Source: Nocardioides conyzicola
GTDB taxonomy: Bacteria; Actinomycetota; Actinomycetes; Propionibacteriales; Nocardioidaceae
Direction: 5' to 3'
Assembly (NCBI RefSeq): GCF_039543825.1
Contig: NZ_BAABKM010000002.1
Span: forward strand, 404,133 to 468,132
Length of the DNA: 64,000 nt
Positions 53,612 to 59,358 of this stretch are shown here, one piece after another (within the stretch, counting starts at the first letter, position 1; each line of letters opens with the position of its first letter). Under the pieces are notes generated by a model. That model was not told the origin of the DNA. It did no database searches and saw only the letters and a program-made list of their open reading frames with translations. Made by a program: the position numbers and the translations under genes.

Positions 53612-55183
53612 ATGACCCCGGAGCGCACGACGTACGACGTCATCGTGGTCGGCGGTGGCCACAACGGCCTCGTCGCCGCCGCCTACCTTGCCCGGGCCGG
53701 GCTCTCGGTGCTGGTGCTGGAGCGCCTCGACCACACCGGAGGCGCCGCGGTGTCCGCACCGGCGTTCCCCGGCCACCCGGCCCGCCTGTCGCGCTACTCC
53801 TACCTGGTCTCGCTGCTGCCCCAGCAGCTGGTGGACGACCTGGGTCTCGAGCTGCGGCTCGCGTCCCGGTCGGTGGCGTCGTACACCCCGACCCTGCGCG
53901 GGGGGCGTGCCGGCGGCCTGCTGGTCGAGCGGCCGGAGGGTCCGCGCACGGAGGCCTCGTTCCGCGAGCTGACCGGAGGCGACGACGAGTTCGCCGCCTG
54001 GCAGCGCTTCTACGGCGAGGTCGCCGGCCTGGCCGAGGTGGTCGCGCCGACGCTGCTCCAGCCGCTCCCGCTCGAGCGGGAGATCCGCGAGCGTGTCGAT
54101 GCCGACCTGTGGCGCGACATCGTCACCAACCCGCTCGGCCAGACCATCGAGGCGCGCTTCACCGACGACACGGTCCGAGGTGTGGTGGCGACCGACGCCC
54201 TCATCGGCACCTTCGCGTCGATGAACGACCCGTCGCTGCTGCAGAACCGCTGCTTCCTCTACCACCTGATCGGCAACGGCACCGGCGAGTGGCGGGTGCC
54301 GATCGGCGGGATGGGCGCCGTCACGGACGCGCTCGCCCGCGCGGCGACCGAGGCCGGGGCCGAGATCCTCACGTCGGCCGGCGTCAGCCACATCGACGCC
54401 TCCGACGACTCGGCGGAGGTCACCTGGGACGACGCGTCGGGCACCCACCGGGCGAGCGCCAGGTGCGTGCTCGCCAACGTCGCTCCGTGGGTGCTCCGCA
54501 TCCTGCTCGGTGGCCCCGAGGACGCCGAGTCGAAGCCGGTCGGCTCCCAGCTGAAGATCAACATGCTGCTCGACCACCTCCCGCAGCTCCGCTCGGGTCT
54601 CGACCCCGCGGTCGCCTTCGCCGGCACCCTCCACCTCGAGGAGGACTACAGCCAGCTGGCCGAGGCGTACGACGACGCCGCCAACCACCACGTCCCGCGG
54701 GTGCTGCCCGGCGAGATCTACTGCCACTCCCTCACCGACCCGTCGATCCTCGGCGACGCGAAGCCGGGCACCCACACCCTGACCTACTTCGGCGTCCACA
54801 CCCCGGCGACGCTCTTCGACCGCGACCCCGAGGGGGCCAAGCGCATGGCCGTCGCCCGGGCGCTCGAATCGCTCAACCTGCACCTCGCCGAGCCGATCGA
54901 GTCCTGTCTCGCCACCGACTCCGACGGCCGGCCCTGCCTGGAGGCGAAGATCCCGCAGGACATCGAGCGCGACCTGGCGATGCCCGGTGGCCACATCTTC
55001 CACGGCGACCTCGAGTGGCCCTGGGCCCCCAACCGCGCCCGCCTGGACACCCCCGCGCAGCAGTGGGGCGTCCAGACCGACGTCGGCTCGGTCCTCGTCT
55101 GCGGCTCCGGATCCCGTCGCGGCGGCGCCGTCTCGGGCCTCGGCGGGCACAGCGCCGCCCAGGCCGTGCTGGCCTCGCTCTGA
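53612..55183 (+). CDS. FAD-dependent oxidoreductase, phytoene-desaturase-like
   Basis: The 523-residue flavoprotein has the N-terminal dinucleotide motif DVIVVGGGHNGLVAAAYLARAGLSV with ERLDHTGGAA. It has an internal substrate domain and the C-terminal FAD closure VLVCGSGSRRGGAVSGLGGHSAA. It resembles the PYROXD2/CrtI-like group, whose bacterial members have no assigned substrate. No carotenoid genes are adjacent, so a desaturase role in pigment synthesis is not supported. Confidence 0.85.
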   Translation: MTPERTTYDVIVVGGGHNGLVAAAYLARAGLSVLVLERLDHTGGAAVSAPAFPGHPARLSRYSYLVSLLPQQLVDDLGLELRLASRSVASYTPTLRGGRAGGLLVERPEGPRTEASFRELTGGDDEFAAWQRFYGEVAGLAEVVAPTLLQPLPLEREIRERVDADLWRDIVTNPLGQTIEARFTDDTVRGVVATDALIGTFASMNDPSLLQNRCFLYHLIGNGTGEWRVPIGGMGAVTDALARAATEAGAEILTSAGVSHIDASDDSAEVTWDDASGTHRASARCVLANVAPWVLRILLGGPEDAESKPVGSQLKINMLLDHLPQLRSGLDPAVAFAGTLHLEEDYSQLAEAYDDAANHHVPRVLPGEIYCHSLTDPSILGDAKPGTHTLTYFGVHTPATLFDRDPEGAKRMAVARALESLNLHLAEPIESCLATDSDGRPCLEAKIPQDIERDLAMPGGHIFHGDLEWPWAPNRARLDTPAQQWGVQTDVGSVLVCGSGSRRGGAVSGLGGHSAAQAVLASL

Positions 55184-55246: not shown

Positions 55247-55322
<76 letters not shown>

Positions 55323-55329
55323 CCACCCA

Positions 55330-55365
55330 CGAAGGGCCGGGAACCACCAGGTTCCCGGCCCTTCG
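55330..55365 (+). terminator. Strong bidirectional hairpin after tRNA-Lys
   Basis: CGAAGGGCCGGGAACC (55330-55345) pairs perfectly with GGTTCCCGGCCCTTCG (55350-55365) around a four-base loop. It serves tRNA-Lys and the convergent transglutaminase-like gene, which ends at 55381. Confidence 0.9.
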
Positions 55366-55380
55366 TGCGTTCCGACGGAC

Positions 55381-56184
55381 TCAGTGCAGGGCGACCAGCT
55401 GGTTGAGGTCGTCGGTCGGCAGCCCGTCGTCGGCGACCGCCGTGACAGAGGACCAGTCGAGGTTGACGTTGCCGGTGACCGTGGTCATGAAGGCCGTGTC
55501 CGCGGCGTCGCGGCCGGTGGCGATCCGCACCAGCGAGGTGCGCGGCGCGAGGGCGGTCGCGTCGACGACGTACCAGGCGCCGGAGACGAAGGCCTCGACG
55601 ACCGCGTGGAAGTCCATCGGGTCGCACCCCGGCGCGTAGACGGCGGTGAGGCGCGCCGGGACCCGGATCGCGCGCAGCAGCGCGATCACCAGGTGGGCGT
55701 AGTCCCGGCAGACGCCGGCGCCGCTCAGTAGAGTGTCGGTCGCGCCGGTCGTCGGCCCGCTGCTGCCCGGGACGTAGACCAGGCGGGTGCCGACCCATGA
55801 CGAGACGGCGGCGAGCAGGTCGCCGTCGCTGACGTTGCCGAACTCGGAGACCGCGAAGCCACCGAACGTGTCGGACTCGATGTAGCGGCTGGGCCGGCGG
55901 TAGAGCGACAGGTCCGCCAGCGAGGGCTCCGGCAGCTCGGCGCTGCCCCGCACCTGGGCCTGGTAGGTGACCCGCGAGAAGCCGGGAGGCAGGGTCACGA
56001 GGTGGAGCCGACCGTCGTGCGGCACGGCCACCTCGACGGGGGTGATCTCGGCGCCGCTCTCGTGCACGACCGAGAACTGCTCGGTGACGTCCAGCCCGGG
56101 AGTCCGGGCGACGGCGATCTGCAGCTCCAGCTGGCACTCGCCGAAGGCGGTGATGCCCAGCTCGGCGCCCACGGTCCTGTCCAT
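55381..56184 (-). CDS. Transglutaminase-like cysteine protein
   Basis: The 267-residue protein has an N-terminal beta domain (to about 110) and a transglutaminase-like core. Its triad is visible: Cys in GAGVCRDYAHLVIALLR (about residue 158), His in MDFHAVVEAFV and Asp in YVVDATALAP. Such bacterial proteins are usually proteases or peptide ligases. No signal peptide, so cytoplasmic. Divergent from the Ser-x-x repeat protein with a 77-bp gap. Substrate unknown. Confidence 0.88.
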   Translation of the reverse strand: MDRTVGAELGITAFGECQLELQIAVARTPGLDVTEQFSVVHESGAEITPVEVAVPHDGRLHLVTLPPGFSRVTYQAQVRGSAELPEPSLADLSLYRRPSRYIESDTFGGFAVSEFGNVSDGDLLAAVSSWVGTRLVYVPGSSGPTTGATDTLLSGAGVCRDYAHLVIALLRAIRVPARLTAVYAPGCDPMDFHAVVEAFVSGAWYVVDATALAPRTSLVRIATGRDAADTAFMTTVTGNVNLDWSSVTAVADDGLPTDDLNQLVALH

Positions 56185-56249
56185 AGGCGGATCGTCACAC
56201 GCTTTCGCCGGTCCCACGACATCGCGACGACAACAGGACGGTGACGTTC

Positions 56250-56255
56250 TACGCT
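56250..56255 (+). promoter_or_regulatory. Leaderless -10 element for the Ser-x-x repeat protein
   Basis: TACGCT, then six bases, then the GTG at 56262. This supports 56262 over the earlier in-frame GTG at 56241, which would lie before the -10. Confidence 0.5.
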
Positions 56256-56261
56256 GATGGC

Positions 56262-56579
56262 GTGGAGAGTCGGCTGTCGTTCCAGTCCCGCAACAGCATC
56301 CTGTCGCTCTGGTCGCACGGATCGGTGCTGAGCATCGGGTCGGTGGGGTCGGCGCTGTCGATCGGCAGCGTCGGCTCGTTCGCGTCGTTCCTCTCGATCG
56401 GCTCCTCGCAGAGCACCCTGTCCGTGCTGTCGCACCAGAGCTCCGGCTCGGTGCTGTCCCACCAGTCCAAGCAGGGCATCCTCGTGTCCCAGCGCAACGG
56501 CGGTCGGGCGCTCGCACCGACCCTGGTCGTCCTGACGGCGCTGACGGCGTACGCCGTCGTGCGGCGCAGCCGCGGTTGA
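56262..56579 (+). CDS. Ser-x-x triplet-repeat protein with C-terminal membrane helix
   Basis: The 105-residue product has serine at every third position from residue 3 to residue 69: 23 consecutive Ser-x-x triplets without a break. The other positions are mostly Ile, Leu, Val, Gly and a few polar residues (for example SVLSIGSVGSALSIGSVGS). After a short QRNGGRA link, a hydrophobic helix (about 83-99) and a basic end (VVRRSRG) suggest a tail-anchored membrane protein. There is no signal peptide. The strict period of three would suit a left-handed beta-solenoid face or a collagen-like rod without proline. I know no characterised family. Third codon positions remain GC-rich, so the frame is real. 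Confidence 0.75.
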   Translation: MESRLSFQSRNSILSLWSHGSVLSIGSVGSALSIGSVGSFASFLSIGSSQSTLSVLSHQSSGSVLSHQSKQGILVSQRNGGRALAPTLVVLTALTAYAVVRRSRG

Positions 56580-56601: not shown

Positions 56602-57021
56602 ATGGAGATCCAGCAGGCCCTCGATGCCGTCCGCGCCAACAAGCAGGCGATCCTCACCACCATCAAGCGGGACGGCCGACCGCAGCTGTCCAACGTCCTG
56701 GCCGCCGTCGGCGACGACGGCCTGATCCGGGTCTCGACCACCGCCGACCGGGCGAAGCACGCCAACCTGCGCCGTACGCCGTGGGCGGCGATCCACGTCA
56801 ACGGCGGGGACTTCTGGTCGTACGCCGTCGTCGAGGGCGACGTCACGCTCTCGGACGTCGTCGCGGACGCCCACGACGAGGCCGCCGAGGAGCTGGTCGA
56901 GCTCTACCGCGCCCTGGCGGGCGAGCACGAGGACTGGGACGACTACCGGGCCGCGCTGGTCCGCGACCGCCGCGTGGTGGTCCGGGTCGTCCCGACCCAC
57001 GCCTACGGCATGCTCCGCTGA
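56602..57021 (+). CDS. PPOX-class F420-dependent oxidoreductase-like protein
   Basis: The 139-residue split-barrel flavin/F420-binding protein resembles actinobacterial PPOX-class enzymes. It shows ILTTIKRDGRPQLSNV (strand-loop binding the cofactor), RVSTTADRAKHANLRRTPWAAIHV and the C-terminal RVVVRVVPTHAYGM. It probably reduces an unknown substrate with F420H2. Directly downstream of the Ser-x-x gene (22 bp), likely co-transcribed; GGAG precedes its ATG. Confidence 0.85.
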   Translation: MEIQQALDAVRANKQAILTTIKRDGRPQLSNVLAAVGDDGLIRVSTTADRAKHANLRRTPWAAIHVNGGDFWSYAVVEGDVTLSDVVADAHDEAAEELVELYRALAGEHEDWDDYRAALVRDRRVVVRVVPTHAYGMLR

Positions 57022-57064: not shown

Positions 57065-57931
57065 ATGTGGAGAAGCCGGCACGTCGTCCTGGCCATCGCT
57101 CTCGCCACCGGTCTGGGCCTTGCGCTCACCGGTCCGGCGGACGCCAAGCCGAAGCCGGTCCGCTGGGCTGCCGCCGCCGAGGCCAGGATCCACCCCGGCA
57201 CGATGATGTACACGCAGGGCGCCCAGTGCACCGCCAACTTCGTCTACCGCGACCGGGCCGGGCGCGTGTACGTCGGGTACGCCGCCCACTGCGCCGGCCT
57301 CGGTGAGGCCACCGACACCAACGGCTGCCAGGCGAAGTCCGTGCTGCTCGGCACGAAGGTGACCTTCGTCGAGGGCGGCAGCGTCGTCGACGGCGGCACC
57401 CGCATCGCCACCGGCACCCTCGTCTACTCGTCCTGGCGCACCATGCACCGCCTGGGCACCAAGAACGCCAACACCTGCGCCTACAACGACCTGGCGCTGG
57501 TCCGGGTCAAGCCGCGTGACGTCGCCAAGGTGAACCCGTCGATCCCCTTCTGGGGCGGCCCGACCGGCATCGACACCGACGGCACCGCCGCCGGCGACCG
57601 CGTCTACACCTACGGCAACTCCAGCCTCCGCGCCGGCATCGCGCTGCTCTCGCCGCACACCGGCGTCAGCCTCGGTGACGACGCCGCCGACGGCGGCTGG
57701 TCGCACCCGCTCTACACCGTGTCCCCGGGCGTCCCCGGCGACTCCGGCTCGGCGTTCGTGAGCGCCGACGGCAAGGCCATCGGCGTCCTGTCCACCCTCG
57801 GCCTGGCCCCGCTCCCGGCGTCGAACAACATCGGCGACCTCGGCAAGGAGCTCGCCTACGCCAAGGCGCACTCCGGCATCAAGGGCCTGCGTCTGGTGAG
57901 GGGCACCGAGCCGTTCAACCCGGTGCTCTGA
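57065..57931 (+). CDS. Secreted trypsin-like (S1) serine protease
   Basis: The 288-residue protein has a signal peptide (residues 1-27, cleavage near ADA-KP) and a chymotrypsin-type domain. The triad is His in VGYAAHCAG, Asp in AYNDLALVRV and Ser in GVPGDSGSAF. Four cysteines could form two disulfides. Presumably extracellular; the substrate may be proteins or peptidoglycan peptides. No operator or riboswitch seen. It is the last gene of a run from 56262. Confidence 0.87.
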   Translation: MWRSRHVVLAIALATGLGLALTGPADAKPKPVRWAAAAEARIHPGTMMYTQGAQCTANFVYRDRAGRVYVGYAAHCAGLGEATDTNGCQAKSVLLGTKVTFVEGGSVVDGGTRIATGTLVYSSWRTMHRLGTKNANTCAYNDLALVRVKPRDVAKVNPSIPFWGGPTGIDTDGTAAGDRVYTYGNSSLRAGIALLSPHTGVSLGDDAADGGWSHPLYTVSPGVPGDSGSAFVSADGKAIGVLSTLGLAPLPASNNIGDLGKELAYAKAHSGIKGLRLVRGTEPFNPVL

Positions 57932-58083
57932 GGGTCGGCGCGCGCTCCCTCGCGGCCCGTTCCTCAAGGCACCTGCAAGGTTGGTCCACCGGTCGGCCAA
58001 GGCTCGTCCACATCCGGCGACGGGGCGCATTCCCCGTGTGAACCTTCTCGGGCAAGCCGTTCACAGCCTTGGGAGCAACTCGG

Positions 58084-59358
58084 ATGAAGACCCACCTCGT
58101 CAGCACCGCCGCCGCCGTCCTGGTGCCGGTCGTCCTCACGCTCGGCGCGGCCCCGGCCGTCGCCGCAGCCGACCCGGGCGGCAACAACGGCACGATCAAG
58201 CTGAGCGAGGTCGGCGGTCCCGAGGACCAGAGCAACGACCCGAAGCTGTCGTGCTCCTTCGAGGTGCAGTGGTACGGCTTCGACAAGGGCAACCTCTACT
58301 CGACGGTCTCCTTCGAGGGCCAGGGCGCGGACGCGAAGGTCGGCGTCACCGCCAACCACCTCAGCCCCGTCTTCATCGGCGAGGACGCCGCTGGCGGCGG
58401 CACCGACCACGACGCCACCCAGGTGTACACCCTCGCGTTCGACGCCCCGCCCGCGAACGCGAAGGCCGGCTACCACGTCAAGATCACGACCCGCAACGAC
58501 GGGGCGAAGGGCGCCGACACCAAGTTCAAGGTGTTCCACGTCGAGCCCTGCGCCGTCGTCACCCCGCCGGTCGTCACCCCGCCCGTCGTCACCCCGCCGG
58601 TCGTCACCCCGCCCGTGGTCGACCCGCCCGTCGTCACCCCGCCCGTGGTCGACCCCCCCGTCGTCACCCCGCCCGTGGTCGACCCGCCCACCGACCCTGT
58701 GACCAGCGACCCCGGTGTCCCGACGCCGGCCGTCGTGCCGTGGGACTGGAACTGGCAGTACGCCGCGCCCGCCTGTGACGCGCTGACGGTCGACTACCCG
58801 TCCAACATCCCGTCGGGCCAGGCCAACGACGTCAACATCCGCTTCGCCACGTCGACCGGCCAGTTCTCGCTCAACTTCCACGACAACACCGGCACGTGGG
58901 ACGGCCGCACGGTCTTCACCTACGCCAACCACGCGCAGTGGCCGGCCGGCCTCACGGCGTACGACGTCGTCTGGGTCCAGGTCGGCGGCACCAACTACCA
59001 CTGGCAGGGCACGGTCGCCTGCGGCACCTCGGCCCCGACGCCGGCCACGCCGGCGCCGGCCACCCCGGCGCCCGCCGCCGCGGTCGCCGAGGTCCTCGGC
59101 TTCAGCACGACCACCACCGTCGTCCGCCGGGGCACGGCGCCGCAGGCCGACTGGATCACCGTGAGCGCGACCGACGCCGACGTGGTGCAGGTGCAGCAGC
59201 TGAACAAGGGCACGTGGACGTCGAGCCGCACCGCCGCGGTCCGCGCGGACGGCACCGCCAAGGTGACGTTCCCGCGGCTCGCCAAGCGCGGCACCTACAA
59301 GTTCCGCGTCGTCGTCGACGGCACCGCCACCAAGACGCTGAAGGTCAAGGTCCGCTGA
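58084..59358 (+). CDS. Secreted protein with Pro-Val repeat linker and Ig-like C-terminus
   Basis: The 424-residue product has a signal peptide (residues 1-28) and an N-terminal beta domain with two cysteines (to about 155). A repetitive linker of V-V-T-P-P and V-V-D-P-P units follows (about 157-203), then a second domain with W-D-W-N-W and two cysteines (about 215-320), a Thr/Pro/Ala linker and an Ig-like end (ADGTAKVTFPRLAKRGTYKFRV). No enzyme motif. The linker would stretch through the wall. ATG at 58084 with GGGAG eight bases upstream. Probably an adhesin or wall-linked protein. Confidence 0.75.
   Translation: MKTHLVSTAAAVLVPVVLTLGAAPAVAAADPGGNNGTIKLSEVGGPEDQSNDPKLSCSFEVQWYGFDKGNLYSTVSFEGQGADAKVGVTANHLSPVFIGEDAAGGGTDHDATQVYTLAFDAPPANAKAGYHVKITTRNDGAKGADTKFKVFHVEPCAVVTPPVVTPPVVTPPVVTPPVVDPPVVTPPVVDPPVVTPPVVDPPTDPVTSDPGVPTPAVVPWDWNWQYAAPACDALTVDYPSNIPSGQANDVNIRFATSTGQFSLNFHDNTGTWDGRTVFTYANHAQWPAGLTAYDVVWVQVGGTNYHWQGTVACGTSAPTPATPAPATPAPAAAVAEVLGFSTTTTVVRRGTAPQADWITVSATDADVVQVQQLNKGTWTSSRTAAVRADGTAKVTFPRLAKRGTYKFRVVVDGTATKTLKVKVR
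58552..58692 (+). repeat. 15-bp tandem repeats coding V-V-T/D-P-P linker
   Basis: About nine contiguous units of GTCGTCACCCCGCC(C/G) or GTGGTCGACCCGCCC encode alternating P-V-V-T-P and P-V-V-D-P. Copies are nearly identical, so unit number is likely to vary between strains, and misassembly is possible here. Confidence 0.85.

Follow-up and report, generated by a model that had tools for sequence, protein, structure and literature searches.

The RTX nonapeptide repeat (GGxGxDxUx) folds as a beta-roll, left-handed beta-helices are built from hexapeptide repeats, and glycine recurs as Gly-x-x in collagen and the snow flea antifreeze protein. A period of three residues based on serine is seen in HxsA4 (NCBIfam NF038313), which carries Ser at every third position and belongs to the His-Xaa-Ser (Hxs) proteins, whose serines have been proposed to be modified, as those of lanthipeptides are known to be. 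Class III lanthipeptide precursors of Streptomyces are described as having tandem SXXSXXXC motifs within a hydrophobic core (PMC13380574).

The gene studied here lies in the window, a 64,000-nucleotide stretch of the Nocardioides conyzicola genome (Table 1). Translation from the GTG at 56262 places Ser at residues 3, 6 and so on up to 69 without a break (23/23), exactly as the first-pass annotation had read it, and only four serines fall out of phase (residues 49, 61, 76 and 103). None of 100,000 shuffles of residues 1-82 reached a 23-Ser run, the longest shuffled run being 11; across the window's 555 stop-to-stop frames of 60 codons or more, the next longest Ser run was likewise 11. The 23 register serines are encoded by a mixture of AGT, AGC, TCG and TCC, that is, by both TCN and AGY codons, so the repeat is not a copied DNA word. 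GC content by codon position (0.58/0.56/0.94) is as expected of a coding frame in GC-rich DNA, and an antisense open reading frame at 56249-56497 was read as a shadow of the S-x-x gene. The window protein reached none of the Pfam or NCBIfam cut-offs.

Table 1. Features at and around the S-x-x gene, in window coordinates.
Feature	Position	Strand	Remarks
FAD oxidoreductase	53612..55183	+	upstream of the S-x-x gene
Transglutaminase-like protein	55381..56184	-	divergent
TACGCT, -10-like element	56250..56255	+	ends 6 nt before GTG; putative leaderless promoter
S-x-x repeat protein gene	56262..56579	+	GTG start, stop included; 105 aa; orthologues found
23 unbroken Ser-x-x triplets, residues 3-69	56268..56468	+	repeat; family-wide unit is a nonapeptide
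Predicted C-terminal membrane helix, residues 85-104	56514..56573	+	AlphaFold2 helix, pLDDT block means 69, 89, 79; best 17-residue mean Kyte-Doolittle hydropathy 2.01
F420-dependent PPOX-class oxidoreductase (TIGR03618)	56602..57021	+	22 nt downstream of the S-x-x gene
Trypsin-like protease	57065..57931	+	weak Pfam match below cut-off, 24.5 vs 27.6 bits

The locus of the window gene is shared with three other genomes of the same genus (L074, L159 and L160). Across these four genomes the Ser columns are invariant in 20 of 23 cases while their codons differ in 16 of 23, whereas the second and third triplet positions are invariant in 6 and 14 of 23, respectively; TCN and AGY codons are mixed among the four orthologues in only 2 of the 20 all-Ser columns. 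The dN/dS of the repeat is 0.25-0.41 and below 1 in all six orthologue pairs, with values of 0.05-0.21 for the Ser codons alone versus 0.37-0.54 for the x codons. In the wider family, dN/dS was below 1 in 34/34 pairs more than 75% identical (0.07-0.51). Ser and x columns differ less clearly in five Terrabacter-type members (24, 23 and 22 of 27 columns invariant at the three triplet positions) and in a Salinispora-type set of six (20, 14 and 22 of 26). The S-x-x open reading frame is a real, selected gene. The first-pass annotation had named missing homologues or a dN/dS of about 1 as grounds for doubt; homologues exist, the ratios lie below 1, and close species indeed keep the strict period of three while other positions change, which places the period itself under selection.

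For family-wide counts we used 78 members, chosen for their Ser register from 79 loci of which one duplicate was dropped. Both TCN and AGY Ser codons are used in 78/78. It is hardly credible that the frame is no gene but a product of GC-rich DNA, whether as a shadow frame or as a simple repeat. Simple SVG- or SAG-repeat frames do occur as weak false matches (e.g. L133, L136, L137 and L142), but the Ser-run shuffles, the mixed codons and the dN/dS values, in both the orthologue pairs and the wider set of close pairs, led us to reject this explanation. Moreover, a cyanobacterial member writes its register serines mostly as AGT (16) together with AGC (3), and the Ser register is therefore not a by-product of GC-rich DNA.

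That member, WP_013334591.1, is carried on a plasmid of Gloeothece verrucosa and was found among the plasmid records searched for the distribution outside Actinomycetota. Only 8 bp separate it (L111:5953-6249) from the next gene downstream, which encodes a CpcT/CpeT chromophore lyase. Nearer to the window gene, homologues at E<=2.6e-9 were found in 16 of the 96 genomes searched as relatives, its own included, and 12 of these belong to the 58 other genomes of the same genus; the tally of 33 at E<=0.1 includes chance matches and was not used as a count. A class-wide search matched 89/394 genomes at E<=1e-5 and 66/394, own included, at E<=5.2e-16, the latter being the safer count because the weak matches include simple SVG or SAG repeats. 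The phylum search matched 31/396 genomes at E<=1e-5. Sixteen matching genomes lie outside the class, of which 14 carry family members as judged by eye (L138 and L141 being short) and two do not (L139 and L140). Named carriers include Terrabacter, Terracoccus, Salinispora, Virgisporangium and Streptomyces plasmids, and some genomes hold two copies (G010, G303).

Several matches were set aside. L133, L136, L137, L139, L140 and L142 were excluded as simple SVG/SAG repeats, and the weak matches L017-L030 on inspection (L017, L018 and L020-L022) or by score (the other nine); L138 and L141, apparently genuine though short, did not enter the member counts. An Alloyangia tblastn match was rejected as the antisense of a TDPTDGTDG repeat. 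A phage origin was also rejected: 25 viral stretches matched the pattern and tblastn confirmed none of them, a result in which low-complexity filtering may hide relatives, and no phage match was found for the cyanobacterial member. Two loci, L210 and L211, have His in several triplets (SHHSILSIGS) and look nearer to the His-Xaa-Ser proteins. In the annotated records seen, members are named only hypothetical protein, no published description of a Ser-x-x family was found in the literature searched, and 25 members other than the window protein gave weak profile matches only (best E 0.0058 in Pfam and 1.4e-4 in NCBIfam). The Ser-x-x proteins are a real, widespread family.

Over the 78 members, Ser occupies 1880 of 1987 triplets (0.946 in phase), a value that is partly circular given that the members were selected for the register. 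The x residues carry a further regularity. Their identity at lag 9 is 0.383 versus 0.17 with the triplets shuffled (z=37), and at lag 18 it is 0.305 versus 0.17 (z=23); at lags 3, 6, 12 and 15 it is at or below chance (z=-1.5 at lag 6). The true unit of the family, a new result of this analysis, is nine residues, not three. It approximates S-V-G-S-V-L-S-I-G, with the position profile S-[VAI]-G-S-[VAI]-L-S-[IV]-G, and is nearly perfect in several members outside the class, for example as repeated SILSIGSAG. Triplets with Trp were seen by eye at the start of the repeat (e.g. SLWS) and, in many members, at its end (SRWSVLSWRS); the ends thus look unlike the middle, as they do in capped folded domains.

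A set of 98 members was used for composition. The number of Ser triplets is 20-28 in 95 of them and ranges from 14 to 29, the shortest (L124, the same gene as L195) appearing frame-shifted and still being counted. Pro makes up 0.3% of the repeat, Gly 12% and Ser 34%. The longest stretch free of K, R, D and E has a median of 49.5 residues and reaches 59 in the window protein; a long charge-free, Pro-poor stretch of this kind is unlike a typical disordered or soluble domain. Cys occurs within the repeat in 38 of the 98 members and is absent from the window protein. In alignments of 2333 pairs, length differences in the repeat were multiples of three in 677 of 743 gaps, a partly circular figure, since the aligner favours the register and the members were picked for it.

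These properties set the family apart from the described repeats. It shares a nine-residue unit, with a strong period of 18, with the RTX proteins, but the Gly-Gly-x-Gly-x-Asp calcium motif is absent (Asp at most 7% among the profile residues listed), no strands are predicted for the repeat, and neither the window protein nor the other members searched matched RTX in Pfam. Likewise, a short period and the combination of Val/Ile/Leu with small residues recall the left-handed beta-helix, yet the six-residue period of the latter is not seen in the x residues and no such Pfam match was obtained. Gly-x-x proteins also have one small residue at every third place; the Ser-x-x family differs from them in having Ser for Gly, almost no Pro and often a membrane tail.

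The window repeat is followed by a hydrophobic stretch and a basic end (RRSRG), and no N-terminal signal peptide is visible by eye, in agreement with the first reading of the sequence. The membrane tail claimed in that reading is predicted for the window protein and for the 48 of 78 members with a segment above the hydropathy threshold, but not for the remaining 30, which include all five Terrabacter/Terracoccus members. Four members of a Cys-containing subgroup (SNCSILS), L079, L080, L082 and L083, are without the segment. In place of the membrane helix, L127 (L202 has the same gene) carries a repeated tail rich in Glu and Pro. Net charge is higher after the segment than before it in 36 of the 48 members and lower in nine; under the positive-inside rule, higher charge after the segment would place the repeat on the outer side of the cytoplasmic membrane. 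The flanking charges of the window protein are equal, 3 and 3, and favour neither orientation.

Leaderless transcripts are known in Actinobacteria, and the leaderless start previously suggested for this gene agrees with the sequence around it. All three orthologues carry a counterpart of the -10-like element, TACGCT or TACGGT, a short way before the start. Family-wide, a TANNNT ending 5-8 nt ahead of the chosen start is present in 19/78 members, compared with 1.2 in shuffles (at most 5 over 500 shuffles); Shine-Dalgarno-like 4-mers were counted in 11/78. The looser [TC]ANNNT precedes the start in 40/78 members, a figure that stands without a shuffled control. The start taken was the one nearest the repeat, with L075 and L168 falling back to the upstream stop. 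The placement of the element would fit leaderless transcripts.

AlphaFold2 gave little confidence to the repeat. With 26 sequences the mean pLDDT was 53, with about 42-48 in the repeat and only the C-terminal helix (85-104) reliable; with 73 sequences and a cleaner homologue (L134) the mean was 56, with 39-50 in the repeat and 93-94 in the C-terminal helix. In both runs the repeat was modelled as low-confidence helices, one of them 20 residues long in the 73-sequence run, and without strands. A solenoid or rod, as the first-pass annotation had suggested, is neither supported nor refuted by these models, in which the repeat scores about 40-50. A search for solved-structure relatives of the window protein returned nine matches (best E 0.55), none of them convincing. 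The 73-sequence profile gave ten at E<=1, the best (3.1e-4) to kinesin-light-chain chimeras, which probably reflect glycine-serine linkers and were rejected.

Our leading inference, offered tentatively, is that the Ser-x-x proteins self-assemble at the membrane, and our best guess is a leaderless, often membrane-anchored, self-assembling Ser-ladder protein. The repeat would be ordered and almost free of charge, with its serine hydroxyls aligned into ladders and its Val/Ile/Leu side chains packed together. Copies of it would associate as a beta-sheet or a three-residue-per-turn helix at the cytoplasmic membrane, held there by the C-terminal helix, and the small membrane protein would serve as a scaffold or structural element rather than as an enzyme. 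Retention of Ser in the window-locus orthologues, while codons and neighbouring residues change, argues for this model, as do the lower dN/dS of the Ser codons, the Ser register with both codon classes across the 78 members, the periods of 9 and 18, the long charge-free and Pro-poor stretches, the mostly 20-28 triplets per member, the hydrophobic tail in 48/78 and the pLDDT block means of the C-terminal helix (up to 89 and 94 in the two runs). However, the low pLDDT of the repeat and its lack of strands, the 30/78 members without a membrane segment, the lack of a convincing solved relative and the lack of a conserved partner argue against it. AlphaFold2 often finds beta-solenoids, which also counts against the model. 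It is possible, though doubtful, that the family represents a new repeat architecture, in which Ser at nonapeptide positions 1, 4 and 7 would build a charge-free, membrane-anchored Ser-ladder fibre or sheet in Actinomycetota and at least one cyanobacterium, with a fold that has no relative found among sequences of solved structure and lies beyond AlphaFold2.

A three-residue-per-turn structure, either a 3-10 or polyproline-II/polyglycine-II-like helix or a bundle of such helices with one all-serine face, perhaps in or on the membrane, seems unlikely. As a matter of geometry, 3.0 residues per turn, or coils a multiple of three residues long, would explain the strict period, which an alpha helix (3.6) does not, and the gap lengths point the same way within the bias of aligner and member choice already mentioned. 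Known polyproline-II bundles are, however, Gly-rich, unlike the Ser-x-x repeat with its almost complete lack of Pro and only 12% Gly, and such a model has no need of the nine-residue unit. The low AlphaFold2 confidence in two runs and the Ser-rich composition could reflect a disordered, low-complexity stretch that has no defined fold and is maintained only because of its composition or stickiness. We consider this improbable: the register is kept over mostly 20-28 triplets, albeit in members chosen for it, the nonapeptide is position-specific, and charge-free stretches of this length with almost no Pro are unusual for disorder.

We regard it as very improbable that the serines are modified, as in the Hxs proteins or lanthipeptides, with the tail holding or exporting the product. 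HxsA4 is matched weakly by 22 of 26 members (best E 1.4e-4), but His is not required in the Ser-x-x family, and the window protein scores only 16.8 bits against a cut-off of 55. The radical SAM maturases HxsB and HxsC (TIGR03978, TIGR03977) were unmatched at E<=1e-5 in the one genome of the window, and membership of the Hxs system was rejected; as a control, loose matches to the two occurred in 12 and 13 of 14 genomes, none over the cut-off. Class III lanthipeptides offer a likeness in Ser residues three apart in a hydrophobic peptide, but there the precursor has two short Cys motifs as opposed to 23 triplets without Cys in the window protein (PMC13380574). A LanC-family gene lies about 750 bp from the Streptomyces plasmid member L115. 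On the other side, Radical_SAM and UPF0004 match four each of 107 nearest-neighbour proteins from 58 loci, which fits a MiaB-like gene, named by eye, near four same-genus loci, and no recurrent modifying enzyme was seen among the 25 of 129 neighbour families listed.

The first-pass annotation had also grouped the S-x-x gene with the F420-type oxidoreductase and the protease in one probable transcript. This order is indeed kept in the four same-genus genomes, with gaps of 22, -1, 1 and 1477 nt between the S-x-x and PPOX genes, but it was not found at the other loci tested, so the suggested grouping is borne out only in part. Further downstream of the protease, the same four genomes have a relative of the secreted-looking protein encoded at 58069-59358 of the window, which contains a TPPVV/DPPVV repeat stretch. 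The transglutaminase gave no match in the 49 other loci tested. On the upstream side, an FAD oxidoreductase is the nearest gene in L159 and L160, at a distance of about 200-235 bp, and also in L092, which comes from another family; in the window, a tRNA-Lys and the transglutaminase gene (55247-56184) separate the two. The FAD-type motif is present in 5/115 nearest neighbours versus 2/464 genes at rank 3 or beyond (Fisher p=0.004, a post hoc test on two gene families). After 40 loci were added, the FAD gene was still seen in only 5/110, including L074 as a partial match left uncalled by the gene caller, and the association is therefore a weak lead.

Such neighbours would allow a flavin/F420 redox unit, in which the Ser-x-x protein would tether the FAD and F420 oxidoreductases to the membrane or arrange them there. 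We judge this quite improbable. The PPOX gene that follows in four genomes, the FAD gene upstream and its enrichment among nearest neighbours speak for it, as does the cNMP-binding pyridine-nucleotide-disulphide oxidoreductase that neighbours the Cys-subgroup gene in both L079 and L082. Against this, the motif test was post hoc and its five matches come from only two gene families, L159 and L160 represent one locus from two genomes, and most loci have other neighbours.

The Cys-subgroup loci L079, L080, L082 and L083 (about 4.5-13 kb) contain an MFS transporter, two alpha/beta hydrolases and a divergent BTAD/AAA-type regulator; the S-x-x gene, the transporter and the two hydrolases apparently form an operon. 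A Pfam check of these neighbours covered the L079 proteins and the L080 regulator. Other members of the subgroup (L154-L156) are without the set. Across the 107 loci with neighbours called by a simple purpose-made gene caller, no gene family occurs within 600 bp in more than seven; the commonest, in seven loci, consists of generic ABC ATPases, and the next, in six, is limited to one genus. Because no neighbour is conserved family-wide, the Ser-x-x protein seems to act alone or in trans.

What characterises this family is a Ser ladder that is strict and under selection, together with a nine-residue unit and, in many members, a predicted membrane anchor. A three-residue Ser register that is selected over great distances represents a sharp physical constraint, and none of the sequence families, solved relatives or structure predictions obtained in this analysis accounts for it. 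These are small genes, and the annotated records seen call their products only hypothetical protein; a class of bacterial proteins may in this way go unstudied. A solved structure of one member would show which structure needs the Ser register.
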